Part shown: positions 17,124 through 23,841 of the stretch, one piece after another
Layout of the letters: every line of letters starts with the position of its first letter
Position numbering within the stretch: the first letter of the stretch is position 1
Assembly: GCA_016208165.1 (NCBI GenBank)
Contig: JACQYL010000046.1
Coordinates: 1 to 57,312, forward strand
Source of the DNA: Deltaproteobacteria bacterium
GTDB lineage: Bacteria; Desulfobacterota; Desulfarculia; JACQYL01
Reading direction: 5' to 3'
Length of the DNA stretch: 57,312 bases
Translations under genes and position numbers: made by a program
The notes under the pieces: model-generated
Seen by the model: only the letters and a program-made list of their open reading frames with translations
The model's database searches: none
What the model was told of the DNA's origin: nothing

Positions 17124-19208
17124 TTATAGTCCTGCTTTGCGGATGTCGCACAGCAAGACTCGAAGACTCGTCGAACCCATGGCGGGATCGCAACTTTCAA
17201 ATGCGTTTTCCGTCAGGATATCGATATTGGAACGGTCCCATCCCAGGTCATCTTCGGCCTCCGGAAACCACCAGCCGTGATCCGCGGCAATGACTTCCCT
17301 GGGCACCCGATCCGTGAGCACCGCTTTTTGGATGACCTTTCCCCGGGGAGACTCGATGCTCACCCAATCTCCCTCACCGATGCCTTTGTCGGCCGCTGTA
17401 TCCGGATGGATCTCGACGAGGGGATCGGGCCGTTTGGACCTGAGGGGCCCGGGAACGCGGTTCTCGGTGTGAAAGAAGAATGGGATGCGCGCTCCGGTGA
17501 TCAGCTGGTAGGGGTAGCGTTTCGCCAATTCCGGGCTGCTCCAGGGAGATTCCGAAGGATCGAAGTAACCGGGCAGGGGATCGTAACCCAGCCTTTCGAG
17601 AATGCCGGAGGAGAATTCAAATTTGCGGGACGGGGTGCGAAAACCGCCTTCGCGGTATTTGCGGAACCGTCGTTCACCCTGCAAATACCCCCGTGCGCAG
17701 AACTCTTCCCAGGTGTGACCCGAGGGGGACAGGATCTCGTTGAGGGCGTCTTTTACCGTAGGCCACCAGAGAGCCGGATCGGTGCATCGTTTGCCCAGGT
17801 CGTTCAGGATCTCGTAATCGGAGCGGGCTTCGCCCACCTGGACCGCTTTTTGCCTAGCCACCACCCAGCCGTGGCGTTTCCACAAATCTCCTACATAGTC
17901 ATGTTCGAGCCACGTGGACGAGGGGAGCACGATGTCGGCTTCCCGCGCCGTAGGGGTCATGAAGAAGTCCGCGACTACGGTGAAATCCGACTTAACGAGC
18001 GCGGCTTTGACTTCGCGAGCGTTGGCCCGGGAAACAACCGGATTGGTGCTGATGAGAAACAGCCCTTTGACCGGGTAGGGTTTCTCCTCGAGGATCGCGT
18101 CCCACACGGCTTTGGGATTGAGAACCGCGATGAAGTCCGCCAGCCTGAATCGGTCTCCGCCCAGTCTTTTTGCGCGGGCTTCTTCACTCAGTCTACGATG
18201 CAAACCCAGCCTTGAAGCGTTGAACACCGGAGGATTGGGGTAAAAGACGTTGCCTCCCGGCCGGTCCAAGTTGCCCGTCATGGCCATGAGACACGTAAGC
18301 AGGCTGATCGTGTTCACGCAGTTTTTGGATTGCTCGAGAGCCACTCCCCAGTGGATGCCCGCAGGTTTGGTATTGGCGAAGAGCTCGGCGGCCGCCTCGA
18401 TTTCCGACGGGGCCAGACCCGTCTTTTCGGAAGCCCAGGACAGCGGGTACTCTTCAGCCCGTCGGCAAAAGGCGTCCCAACCGTGGGTATAGGCATCCAC
18501 GAACTCCTCGTCGTAGAGCTTTTTCCCGATGATCACGTCGATCATGCCCCAGGCCAGTGCTCCGTCCGTGCCGGGCCGCAAACGAAGCCAGATGTCGGCC
18601 TGGCCCGCAACCATGGATCGACGGGGATCCACGCAAATGATTTTGGCCCCCTGCTTCATGGCCTGAGCCAGGTACAGGCCTTTATACTCGTCCGGGTTGG
18701 AGACCAGCGGATTGGCCCCCCAGACGATGACGCAGGCCGGTCCGCCCTCGTAGTCCACCACGGGCAGATTGCCGCAACGGGCGATGCCAACGGCGATACG
18801 GGGTCCGTAGCACATGTGGCCGGCGGTGAGCACGTTGGGGGTTCCGAAGGTGTTGGCGAAACGGTAGATGAAGGCTTCGTTGTCACGGCCCGTGCCGTAA
18901 CCCACAACCAGTGATTCGGCTCCAAACCGATCCCTGATCCCAAGGAAACGCTCGGTGATTTCGTCATAGGCGTCGTCCCAGGATATCCGTTCCCACGATC
19001 CATTTTTTTTCCGTAACGGGTGGGTGAGCCTCTGGGGGTGATGGGTGATGGTATGGTACCGCTTTCCCTTGATGCACAGCCACCCCCGATTTACGGGACT
19101 ATCGGGATCCCCATTAATAGATCGTACCGTGTTGTCTTCGACGGTCACCAGAACTCCGCATCCGCCGTGGCAGCCCCTGCAGGCGCTTTTTACGATTCGT
19201 CCGGCCAT
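17124..19208 (-). CDS. Molybdopterin (Mo/W-bisMGD) oxidoreductase with [4Fe-4S] cluster
   Basis: The 694-residue protein has the N-terminal cluster motif C10-x2-C13-x3-C17 and C45, the alpha, beta and molybdopterin-dinucleotide-binding domains of the DMSO-reductase family, and Cys133 in AGHMCYGPR at the position of the metal-ligating Cys. There is no twin-arginine signal, so it is cytoplasmic. It resembles the branch holding thiosulfate/polysulfide reductases and acetylene hydratase. The residue after the second cluster Cys is His14, whereas acetylene hydratase uses Asp there, so that activity is not supported. GAGGAG lies six bases before the ATG. No electron-transfer partner gene adjoins it. 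It is divergent from the MerB-like selenoprotein gene with a 236-base shared region. Confidence 0.85.
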   Translation of the reverse strand: MAGRIVKSACRGCHGGCGVLVTVEDNTVRSINGDPDSPVNRGWLCIKGKRYHTITHHPQRLTHPLRKKNGSWERISWDDAYDEITERFLGIRDRFGAESLVVGYGTGRDNEAFIYRFANTFGTPNVLTAGHMCYGPRIAVGIARCGNLPVVDYEGGPACVIVWGANPLVSNPDEYKGLYLAQAMKQGAKIICVDPRRSMVAGQADIWLRLRPGTDGALAWGMIDVIIGKKLYDEEFVDAYTHGWDAFCRRAEEYPLSWASEKTGLAPSEIEAAAELFANTKPAGIHWGVALEQSKNCVNTISLLTCLMAMTGNLDRPGGNVFYPNPPVFNASRLGLHRRLSEEARAKRLGGDRFRLADFIAVLNPKAVWDAILEEKPYPVKGLFLISTNPVVSRANAREVKAALVKSDFTVVADFFMTPTAREADIVLPSSTWLEHDYVGDLWKRHGWVVARQKAVQVGEARSDYEILNDLGKRCTDPALWWPTVKDALNEILSPSGHTWEEFCARGYLQGERRFRKYREGGFRTPSRKFEFSSGILERLGYDPLPGYFDPSESPWSSPELAKRYPYQLITGARIPFFFHTENRVPGPLRSKRPDPLVEIHPDTAADKGIGEGDWVSIESPRGKVIQKAVLTDRVPREVIAADHGWWFPEAEDDLGWDRSNIDILTENAFESCDPAMGSTSLRVLLCDIRKAGL

Positions 19209-19408: not shown

Positions 19409-19444
19409 GAATACTCAACGCCAATCAGAAAGGAGAAGCGCGAT

Positions 19445-20152
19445 ATGAGTGATCCGAGCATGTTGGACAAGACCTTCCATGTCGTCATGAAACGTATGGT
19501 GGAAACCGGCCAAGCCCCGTTCTATACGGAGCTGGCGCACGAACTCGGATTGTCGGTGGAAGAAGGGAGGAAACGACTCCACGAGCTGTTTTCCTCCCGC
19601 ATCGCCGGCTGGCTGCATCCGGGAACAGATCTTATCGTTTCGTTCGCCCCCTTCAACAACCTCCCCACCCAGTATCGCATCAGTGTCGACGGCCGACAAA
19701 ACTGGTTCGGGCAGTGAGGGTTCGAGTCGCTGGCGGTCAGCCGGCTCTTCCCCGGCAAAACAGTCCGGATCGATTTTCCCTGCCTGGATTGCGGTGGGCC
19801 GCTCCGGGTGGAAATGAAGGATGGGAAGGTACTCAACGCCGAGGCCCTAACATACATGGCCTACGTATCCGTGCCTTTCTGGAAATGGGTGGAAGACATC
19901 GCACACTCCTGAAGCACCATGAATCTCTTCCGGTCGGAAGAGCATATCCGGAACTGGGCTTCTTTTGCCCCCAACACCGAGGAAGGCGTCACTCCCTTGC
20001 CGGACATGGTCAAATTGTTCTCCGGGCCGTATTTCAGACGGCGTCTGGATCCGGATTACGTGTCTCACATGTCCGAGTATGCCCGGGACATGATCGGGAC
20101 CATGATCGAGATCGGAAAAACCGGTCCGTTCTGGAAGCGGCCCAAACCGTAG
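19445..20152 (+). CDS. MerB-like (organomercurial lyase family) protein with two selenocysteines, Sec91 and Sec156
   Basis: One continuous frame of 235 codons is interrupted only by TGA at 19715-19717 and 19910-19912. Residues 8-58 form the helical, winged-helix-like front domain of MerB. From YRISVDG onward the core follows MerB: the first UGA stands where MerB has catalytic Cys96, with Glu94 three residues later at the place of Asp99, and a CLDC pair (113, 116) at the place of Cys117. The second UGA stands at the place of Cys159, before MNLFRSEEHIRNWAS, which matches the MerB HVHFFAS...DWAS region. Both UGAs are followed by SECIS-like hairpins. AAAGGAG lies nine bases before the ATG. In MerB the two Cys cleave the carbon-mercury bond and bind Hg(II). 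Selenols would bind mercury more tightly or protonate faster. Whether the substrate is organomercury is inference. A twice-mutated pseudogene is the alternative, and I think it unlikely. Confidence 0.85.
19718..19753 (+). promoter_or_regulatory. Bacterial SECIS-like hairpin for UGA at codon 91
   Basis: Immediately after the first UGA, GAGTCGCTG (19724-19732) pairs with CAGC-GGCTC (19738-19747, one bulged C) in a nine-pair stem with apical loop GCGGU. Outer GGG/CCC pairing (19718-19720 with 19751-19753) can extend it. The loop starts 16 bases after the UGA and contains the GGU expected for SelB recognition. Confidence 0.7.
19925..19942 (+). promoter_or_regulatory. Bacterial SECIS-like hairpin for UGA at codon 156
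   Basis: CTCTTCC (19925-19931) and GGAAGAG (19936-19942) form a perfect seven-base-pair stem closed by the tetraloop GGUC. The loop begins 20 bases after the second UGA. The GGUC loop is the same as in the E. coli fdhF SECIS, and the distance is within the bacterial range. Confidence 0.8.
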
Positions 20153-20427: not shown

Positions 20428-23400
20428 CTATGTAGCCATGTCGGATGGGTATTGCTTCTTTTCCAGGACCTCTCTAACCTTCCCCAGAAGATCCTTATTA
20501 AGAAAAGGTTTGGATATGAAGCCCGCCGCACCGGCCGCAAGCACATCTTTAATCTGACGGTCGGCCGAGTAACCGCTGGCAACGATCACCCGGGCCTTGG
20601 GGTCGATGGCCCGGATCTTCTTCAGGCATTTGAAGCCTCCCATGCCCGGCATGCCCAAATCCAATATCACCAGGTCCAGCGTACCCTTCTTTCTGCTAAA
20701 AATATCCAGCGCTTCCTCGCCGTTCCGGGCAGTGATGACGTCATAGCCCATCCTCTGCAGCATCTCGACGCCCAGGTCTCTCAACGCCGGCTCATCATCC
20801 ACGATCAGAATCCGCTCGCTGCCTCCGGCCGGCTCCGCGGCCGTCTCATCCGCCGGCGTATCCGCAGGAACTTCTGTTTCGTAAGCCGGCAGGTATATTC
20901 TGAACAGCGTCCCCCTCGATGGTTCGCTGTAACAGGAAATGTGACCGCCGTGGGTCTTCACTATTCCGTGAACCGTAGCCAGCCCCAGCCCGGTACCCTT
21001 GCCCACCTCCTTGGTGGTGAAAAACGGATTGAAGATCTGATCGAGCGTTTTTGAGTCCATTCCTATTCCGGTGTCCTGAACCTGCAGGAGCACGTAGGAC
21101 CCGGAACGCACTTCCACATGCTGTCGGCAATAATCCCGGTCCAGGTCGGCGTTGCCGGTTCTTATGACCAGCCTGCCCCCATCGGGCATGGCGTCCCTTG
21201 CGTTGCTCGCCAGGTTGACCAGCACCTGTTCTATCTGGCCGGCGTCCGCATTGACCTTTTTCAGGTTCTCCGTCAAGGACGTCTCAATACCGATGTTCTT
21301 TGGAATGGTCCGATCGAGCATCCTGACCGTCTCGACCACCTTCTCGTTGAGACTCAATGGTTTGAACTGGGCTTCGCCTTTCCGGCTGAACGTGAGTATC
21401 TGGCGCACCAAATTTTTCGCCCGTTCCGAGGCCTTGATGATCTGCTTGATTTCTTCGCTGTTGCTTTTCGCCTGACCGGCCAATTCCAGGGCCAGCTCTC
21501 CATACCCCATAACGGCGGCCAGGATGTTGTTGAAGTCATGGGCAATGCCCCCGGCGAGGGTGCCGATGGCTTCCATCTTTTGCGCCTGGCGAAGTTGGGT
21601 TTCCAGGTTGGATCTTTCCTCGGCGACCTTCTTGCTTTGAGTGATATCCAGGGCGGTAAAGACCATACCGGCCGACAAGTCCGAGGGGTCCAGAGGGGCG
21701 GAACTCAGCAGGACGTCCAACACCGTCCCATCCTTGCGCAGAAACTGCGATTCCACGGAGCCAAGACCTGTGGCGCGTACTGAGGTTTGCATTATGCACC
21801 CCACCCGGTCATACTCCTCCCGGCCGGTATAGAGGCGCCTGGACGGCATACCCATTAACTCCTCTGCCGAATAACCCGTCATCTCGCTCATTTTCTCGTT
21901 GGTCCATCCCAGGACCCGGTCGGGAACGCTCACCATTCCGATTCCAATGGGAGAAGCCTGGTAGATGGTGCGAAGGGTGGCCTCCCTATTCCTCAATTCT
22001 TCGTCCGCCCGCCTGAGTTCGGTAATATCCTGAACGGTCCCCTCGATCCTCACAGGGTTCCCGGCATCGTCGGAAATCAGTTCGGCTTTGGAGTGTATGA
22101 AACGGATTTCTCCGTCGGATAAGCGCCGGATCCTGAATTCCTGGTCATAGGTTTTTCCCCCGTCTTTGAATTCTTTCAGGGCTCGGTCCAGACGGGGTCG
22201 GTCTTCAGCCGTAACGGCCTTCTGCGCCTCTGCCAAGGGAAGTTCCAACGAAGACGTGGGTTCGAGGCCATAAACCCTGAAAGCCTCCTCGGATCCCCAG
22301 ACGACGTTGTTGGAAAGGTCCACCTCAAAGTTGCCCACATGGGCTACGCTCTGAGCCCTCTTGAGCCGCGCCTCGCTCGTCTCGAGTGCTTCCGCAGCCA
22401 GCTTGCGTTCCGTAATGTCGAAGGTGAGCACCACGATTCCCCGGACCTTGCCTCCCTCGCCGAAGTCGGGAACGTAATTGACCTTGGCCCATCGCCTTCC
22501 TTCCGCGAGACGAAACGCGTTTTCGTACGAGGCGGGTTCGCCCGCCCTCACTTTCTCGATGTGGGGCAGAGCAAACTGATAGTTGGTCTCCCCGATCAGG
22601 TCCTTGATGTGCATTCCGACAATCCGCTCACGCGGAACCTTGAACCCCTCCTCGAACTGTCTGTTGACAAAGTGGTAGCGGAGATCGTCCATTCCCACAT
22701 AAGCGATGTATGCCGGCAGGTTGTCCGTTATAAGGCGCAGTTCCTCCTCGCGGCGTTTGATCTCTTCTTCCGCACGCTTACGCTCAGTGATGTCCCGGGT
22801 TACCCCCAAAACCTGAGTTGCTTTTCCATGGGGGTCGGTGAGCAGAGTCGTTACGATCTCCGTCGGCACGATAGATCCGTCTTTACGGGGCTGATCGACC
22901 TGGATCGTATATATGCGGGCCGACCCGTCGCCCTCCGAGAGCGTGGCTATTCTTGGCATCAGGTTTTTGGACAGCAGACGAAAAGACTCTTTCGTTAACA
23001 CATGTTTCACGGGTTTGTTCATGACTTCTTCAGGAGAGTAGCCTCGCAGCCGCTGAATGGATGGACTTATATAACTGAACTTCTCCAAGGTAAGATCATA
23101 AAGCCATATGACGTCAGCCGTATTTTCCGATATCAGGCGATACCGTTCTTCGCTGCGGCGCAACGCATTCTCGGCCGCCAGACGTTCCTGCCTCTCCTCG
23201 AGCAGCCGGCGATTGGCCTCCTCCAGCCCGCGCAGGGCCACGGATTCCTTTTCGAGGGCTCCAGCCAGGTTACGGAAGACCACCGCGAGTGAAGTAGCCG
23301 TCAGGAAGTTGAGCATCAGGAAACTGATCGACAGCACCAGCCATTGCTGGTCGGTGACGGCGTAGCGGGCGATCCAGGAGAATTGGCCCTGGCTGAACAA

Positions 23401-23841
23401 CCACCAAGCTCCCAACAAGGTGACGACATTGAGAACCAGGGCGAGAGTCCCGGCCCTAAGCCCGAAAAACACCCCCGTCAGGACGGCAAATGTGAAGAAC
23501 CACACCAGCCAACCCGAGGCCGGCCCCACGGTCCATAGAACGATTGCGCCGACCAGATACAGCAGTCCGACGGCAATCTGGGCCCGAAGGCGGAAGGCGA
23601 GTCTGCGCCGGCACGCCACACCCACGATGAACCAGAGTACGGCCAGGGAATCCACCACGCCCAGCCGCCACCGATCCTCCTGATAGACAAAAGTTAACGA
23701 TACCAGGAGCGCGACCGGACCCAGGATAGCCCCCGTCAGGTACACAGCATTGAGTATCTGCTCGCGTCCCTCTGCGAGGCCGCTCGTCTTTTCCCAAGTC
23801 GTTTGAAATAAACCTTTAAACCAATTTTGCATAACCTTCAC
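20428..23841 (-). CDS. Membrane hybrid sensor histidine kinase with multiple PAS domains and receiver
   Basis: The 1137-residue protein has about six N-terminal membrane helices (30-190), a short coiled coil, four PAS domains (about 225-750; [10 protein letters not shown] and [10 protein letters not shown] linkers mark their ends), a HisKA/HATPase core and a C-terminal receiver. The phospho-accepting His is 768 in GGIAHDFNN. The ATPase has DTGIGMD and [15 protein letters not shown]. The receiver Asp is 1061 in [10 protein letters not shown]. The GTG at 23841 is the annotated start, but an ATG three codons later is equally possible and the SD is unclear. It probably relays signals through the attached receiver to a separate phosphotransfer protein. 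No cognate regulator is adjacent. It is divergent from the second kinase. Confidence 0.88.

Follow-up and report, generated by a model that had tools for sequence, protein, structure and literature searches.

Predicted selenocysteine at both catalytic positions of a MerB-like protein

The locus examined here raises the question of whether one MerB-like protein is translated through two in-frame UGA codons and, if so, what a protein with selenocysteine (Sec) at both sites would do. The window, a 57,312-nucleotide stretch of DNA from a Deltaproteobacteria bacterium, contains a single plus-strand frame of 235 codons that begins with ATG at 19445, ends with TAG at 20150-20152, and includes two TGA codons and no further stop (Table 1). 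The original prediction of a frame intact apart from two UGA codons was thus exact. The gene, assigned here to "family A", is solitary in the window and lies outside any mer operon, with a molybdopterin oxidoreductase gene upstream and a multi-PAS histidine kinase gene downstream. A reassigned code or read-through was ruled out: long standard-code ORFs in the window end at UGA, which therefore serves as a normal stop codon there and is not reassigned, and intact family members have no internal TAA or TAG.

Table 1. Features of the family A locus and its neighbors (positions in the window)
Feature	Position	Strand	Basis or remark
Molybdopterin oxidoreductase gene	17124..19208	-	upstream neighbor
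Shine-Dalgarno-like aaaggagaag	19429..19438	+	AAGGAGA core ends about 8 bases 5' of ATG; read from sequence
MerB-like gene with two predicted Sec (family A)	19445..20152	+	235 residues, Sec at 91 and 156
UGA codon 91 (predicted Sec91; MerB Cys96 position)	19715..19717	+	frame and alignment
Putative SECIS hairpin 1	19729..19745	+	stem GCTGGC/GCCGGC, loop GGTCA at 19735-19739; comparative evidence
CLDC motif (Cys113, Cys116)	19781..19792	+	invariant among 35 aligned relatives; Cys113 aligns with MerB Cys117
UGA codon 156 (predicted Sec156; MerB Cys159 position)	19910..19912	+	frame and alignment
Putative SECIS hairpin 2	19925..19942	+	stem CTCTTCC/GGAAGAG, loop GGTC at 19932-19935; comparative evidence
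Multi-PAS histidine kinase gene	20428..23841	-	downstream neighbor

Conservation of the UGA codons

Relatives were collected from two samples, 395 genomes of the phylum Desulfobacterota and a second genome collection with one genome per species. The pattern of two UGA codons lies far outside chance expectation. A paralog in the same genome (contig C38) is 60% identical and has UGA at the identical codons 91 and 156. Among the 395 phylum genomes, every full-length close homolog (43-76% identity, about 20 genera) contained exactly two TGA codons, and relatives below about 35% identity had at most one within the region matched. The one-genome-per-species scan yielded 281 relatives, mostly from Desulfobacterota metagenome-assembled genomes (MAGs), with further hosts in the Chloroflexi, Nitrospirae, Abyssobacteria, Lambdaproteobacteria, and Acidimicrobiia. 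G358, a phylum genome of the same class as the genome studied here, gave match coordinates and identity equal to those of L072 (Desulfarculus sp. SURF_10), so that a Desulfarculus-like member of the Desulfobacterota is the likely source of the window. Both UGA codons were present in 78 of the best 80 of these relatives, so that the two columns hold UGA or, rarely, Cys, in favor of the original prediction. The exceptions are L097, which is frameshifted, and L138 (7070-7771), in which Cys at 91 alongside UGA at 156 represents a natural Sec/Cys exchange, indicating that such exchange is possible at site 91. Carriers include L071, L075, L087, and L124, MAGs that were each deposited as one chromosome, which argues against assembly error, and dN/dS values of about 0.06-0.2, where dS is unsaturated, indicate purifying selection on each of the three segments into which the UGA codons divide the gene. 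No viral relatives were found, and the only plasmid relatives were two distant MerBA proteins of the Cys type.

The genes next to family A vary between species, and no constant operon partner was found. About eleven Syntrophaceae loci (L060, L063, L076, L083-L086, L090, L092, L093, and L128) share a downstream same-strand set encoding CCG-domain Fe-S proteins, a FAD_binding_4 oxidase, and a C_GCAxxG_C_C protein. In the genome studied here, a cation efflux (CDF) gene (L019 16962-17504) begins about 260 bases 3' of the paralogous double-Sec gene and runs off the contig end.

Putative SECIS elements and Sec machinery

A conserved hairpin follows each UGA codon. With numbering from the U of UGA (position 1), positions 15-20 of hairpin 1 pair with 26-31, the six pairs being 99-100% paired across 79 sequences, and the loop is GGTC[T/A/C] in 65 of the 79 and AGTY in the remainder. 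Positions 16-22 of hairpin 2 pair with 27-33, with a GGTC loop in all 78 sequences compared and a compensatory C-G/U-A change in the outer pair (45/26); its codons CGG (Arg163) and TCG (Ser164) are fixed in 79 of 79. When the 61 conserved degenerate codons were ranked by wobble entropy, the lowest values belonged to exactly Ser95, Leu96, Ala97, Val98, Arg163, and Ser164, and these six most constrained synonymous sites all fall within the two hairpins. This wobble constraint is a better test than minimum free energy, for which the mean z was +0.3 for hairpin 1 (uninformative) and -1.4 for hairpin 2. An Rfam scan of the region gave no match to a SECIS family, and the case for the hairpins is therefore a comparative one. 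Their loop and distance from the UGA resemble those of the SECIS element of Escherichia coli fdhF.

The genome carries all four of the Sec genes that the original prediction had listed for checking, namely selB (384 bits), selA, selD, and a tRNA-Sec gene (selC) with anticodon TCA. The selA match (G000 contig C48 84608-85842) is divided between two frames, with a gap of about 50 residues; this split may reflect an assembly frameshift or a sequencing error. From the conserved pair of UGA codons, the presence of selABCD, and the two hairpins with their constrained synonymous sites, comparative genomics predicts, with near certainty, that Sec is inserted at both 91 and 156.

Fold and active-site residues

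Searched with Cys in place of U, the protein matched the Pfam MerB model (PF03243) at 68.7 bits against a gathering score of 27 (E 6e-19), and it matched the sequence of a MerB2 entry in the PDB at E 7e-5. An AlphaFold model, built from an alignment of 35 relatives with Cys substituted for Sec, had a mean pLDDT of 94.8. Foldseek returned eleven significant matches to this model, all of them MerB or MerB2 (E 3e-10 to MerB), and VIA-align gave Z scores of 16.2 to MerB2, 14.6-15.3 to MerB crystal structures, and 9.6 to the MerB NMR model, with the next-best fold at 4.4; identity to MerB and MerB2 in the structure alignments was 14-20%. No NCBIfam model cut-off was reached by the window protein, which scored 29.7 and 25.9 bits with the MerB equivalog models NF009710 and NF033555 (cut-offs 193 and 200) and 28.2 bits with the SaoL model NF040728 (cut-off 140). 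The 35 aligned relatives (set A3) also matched the SaoL and MerB models weakly, with a best E of 3e-14. Membership in classical MerB was rejected given the scores below cut-off and the replacement of Cys96/Asp99/Cys159 by Sec/Glu/Sec, and membership in SaoL was rejected given the score below cut-off and the presence of two Sec with no Cys-Sec pair.

Three plasmid MerB sequences and one MerBA served as references for aligning the active site. In MerB numbering, U91 falls on Cys96, Glu94 on Asp99, Cys113 on Cys117, and U156 on Cys159. Pfam and the structure comparisons therefore bear out the original assignment as a MerB homolog, and the real MerB sequences confirm its placement of these four residues. 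None of Glu94, Cys113, and Cys116 varies across the 35 relatives, and neither do the two Sec columns (U written as C), apart from a single genuine Cys at column 91. Three unusual features call for explanation: the Asp-to-Glu replacement, the additional CxxC, and the exit of mercury from two selenolates.

Mercury context

The same genome encodes a canonical HgcA (444.5 bits, motif NVWCAAGK) with hgcB adjacent (L183 2864-4208, contig C98), and the organism is thus a predicted mercury methylator; no MerA above cut-off was found in the genome. Within the 395 phylum genomes, HgcA exceeded its cut-off in 19 of 27 carriers of family A and in 95 of the 368 other genomes (P 4e-6). Stratification by taxonomic family, tabulated by hand, gave an odds ratio of 4.8 (P 0.015), with relatedness and genome size remaining as confounders. 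As selA is present in 359 of the 395 genomes, Sec use alone does not account for this pattern. Among 50 named carriers, HgcA was above cut-off in 26 and in none of those from Chloroflexi, so self-made methylmercury need not be the sole substrate. The connection between family A and methylmercury is accordingly suggestive and non-obligatory.

Proposed function and alternative explanations

The fold, Sec sites, SECIS elements, Sec machinery, and conservation are covered by sequence evidence, and we infer catalysis, substrate, the order of steps, and metal release largely by analogy with MerB. In the proposed mechanism, the ordinary bacterial SelB pathway would place Sec at both metal-binding positions of a cytosolic MerB-fold enzyme, with a separate hairpin, some 15-33 bases 3' of each UGA, directing insertion there. 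Sec91 would attack the metal of the substrate, an organometal that is most likely methylmercury; Glu94, at the Asp99 position, would donate the proton that frees the organic group, and the freed metal would be held between the Sec91 and Sec156 selenolates. We propose that it then passes to sulfide, to thiols, or to the conserved pair Cys113-x-x-Cys116. The selenolates could allow the enzyme to compete for methylmercury within sulfide-rich anaerobic cells.

Our best explanation as a whole, which we hold to be reasonably probable, is a double-Sec MerB-fold enzyme with SelB-inserted Sec and MerB-like organometal cleavage. The fold, the retained active-site layout, and the genome context suggest that, on balance, family A probably cleaves methylmercury or a similar organometal, although the choice between an organomercurial lyase and another metal or metalloid enzyme on the MerB fold is inferential. 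The explanation as a whole is favored by the MerB domain score together with fold matches confined to MerB and MerB2, UGA in both catalytic columns in 78 of 80 relatives with invariant Glu94, Cys113, and Cys116, and the two hairpins accompanied by selABCD. The Cys91 of L138, the Glu retained in the closest Cys/Cys relatives, and hgcAB in the same genome with HgcA over-represented alongside the gene in the phylum point the same way. Evidence against it comprises the lack of a mer operon and of MerA above cut-off, the variable neighbors, HgcA in only 26 of 50 named carriers, the altered catalytic acid, and the chance that two selenolates hold Hg(II) too tightly for turnover. The main competitor, which we consider unlikely, is a double-Sec MerB-fold lyase whose substrate is some other organometal or a metalloid compound, in line with what has been proposed for the SAO system: SaoL is assigned to an organometallic system assisted by Sec, for which no mercury substrate is stated (PMC13188914). 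Glu at the Asp99 position, the distance of family A from classical MerB, and the roughly half of carriers without HgcA fit such a lyase, but no neighbor indicates another metal, and the HgcA association within the phylum speaks for mercury.

It is less probable still that the protein is a high-affinity scavenger whose pair of selenolates captures methylmercury or Hg(II) in stoichiometric amounts, turning over slowly or not at all. Mercury binds more tightly to selenolates than to thiolates, and no above-cut-off MerA partner awaits the product; on the other side, a carboxylate (Glu94) in all aligned members and the complete MerB active-site layout suggest catalysis, and sulfide could strip off the Hg. 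The conserved CxxC, and the CCG-domain, FAD_binding_4, and C_GCAxxG_C_C neighbors in one Syntrophaceae group, would suit a redox enzyme or metallochaperone with a Sec-Sec or Sec-Cys pair, which we regard as very unlikely given that about eleven loci from a single clade account for all cases of this neighborhood and that, to our knowledge, no MerB-fold redox enzyme is known. Nothing but the UGA codons themselves suggests a pseudogene or assembly error in which they are true stops. Their retention in dozens of species, including the single-chromosome MAGs, with purifying selection in three segments and conserved SECIS elements, leaves that reading a negligible probability, the homologs having already refuted it.

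Relation to published work

A 2026 catalog of 119 prokaryotic selenoprotein families contains, on the MerB fold, only the single-Sec SaoL (PMC13188914). A 2020 review lists an "Organic mercuric lyase MerB2" among predicted selenoproteins, with the number and sites of Sec not given (PMC7435645), and an earlier report of such a protein is therefore possible. In the literature covered here, we found no described organomercurial lyase with Sec at both metal-binding catalytic residues. Genomes encoding MerB alone were reported in a 2021 survey, none of them with HgcAB homologs (PMC8261052); in contrast, the genome studied here combines hgcAB and two double-Sec MerB-like genes with no MerA above cut-off. 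Family A is widespread, and ordinary gene prediction fragments its genes; a gene broken up by two UGA codons is easily missed in merB surveys. We tentatively propose, with slightly more doubt than belief, that many anaerobic mercury methylators hide a double-Sec methylmercury demethylase, so that one cell would both make and break methylmercury, and that two MerB lineages separately went from Cys to Sec at both sites. If the protein does demethylate methylmercury, net methylmercury production by anaerobes needs rethinking, and mercury turnover by two selenolates becomes a directly testable question of chemistry.

Comparison with known and related families

Among known proteins, MbdU (NF045648), the metal-binding double selenoprotein, likewise has two Sec and a metal-related name (PMC13188914) but differs in its unrelated 468-residue profile; identity with MbdU was rejected, as the genes that match it weakly in this genome are different ones. 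MerB itself (PF03243; the R831b/R830b type and MerB2 of Bacillus) shares with family A the fold, the catalytic layout, the Cys117 equivalent, and a winged-helix-like N-terminal part, whereas family A has Sec for both catalytic Cys, Glu for Asp99, an extra Cys116, and no mer operon. SaoL (NF040728; L147 and L148) is also a MerB-fold selenoprotein, and its Sec aligns with Sec156; unlike family A, it has a single Sec in a Cys-Sec pair, with Cys at position 96 and Asp99 kept. Two further single-Sec MerB-like proteins (L151 and L152), not SaoL by score, keep Cys where MerB has Cys96, and UGA takes the place of Cys159.

A second double-Sec MerB-like group, "family B" (L154, L156-L158, L160-L162, L171, L172, and L175), resembles family A in having UGA at the Cys96 and Cys159 positions and a GGTC hairpin after the second UGA, but differs in its Asp at position 99, an N-terminal extension, and another hairpin after the first UGA. 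In hairpin 2 of family B, CGG-TCG and TGG-TCA change together in 10 of 10 sequences, so that the protein alternates between FRSEE and FWSEE (Arg/Trp) in step with the RNA base pair. In the tree, family A lies closest to a lineage of MerB-like Cys/Cys proteins about 300 residues long (L163, L166, and L176), which have the same Glu at position 99 in a comparable "KW(F/Y)GEC" context and are set apart by Cys at both sites, no CxxC, and a longer C-terminal part. Family B forms a fully supported clade apart from family A, which groups with these Glu-sharing proteins (100/99). The double-Sec state therefore likely had two separate origins, with family A not one resolved clade relative to those Cys proteins.
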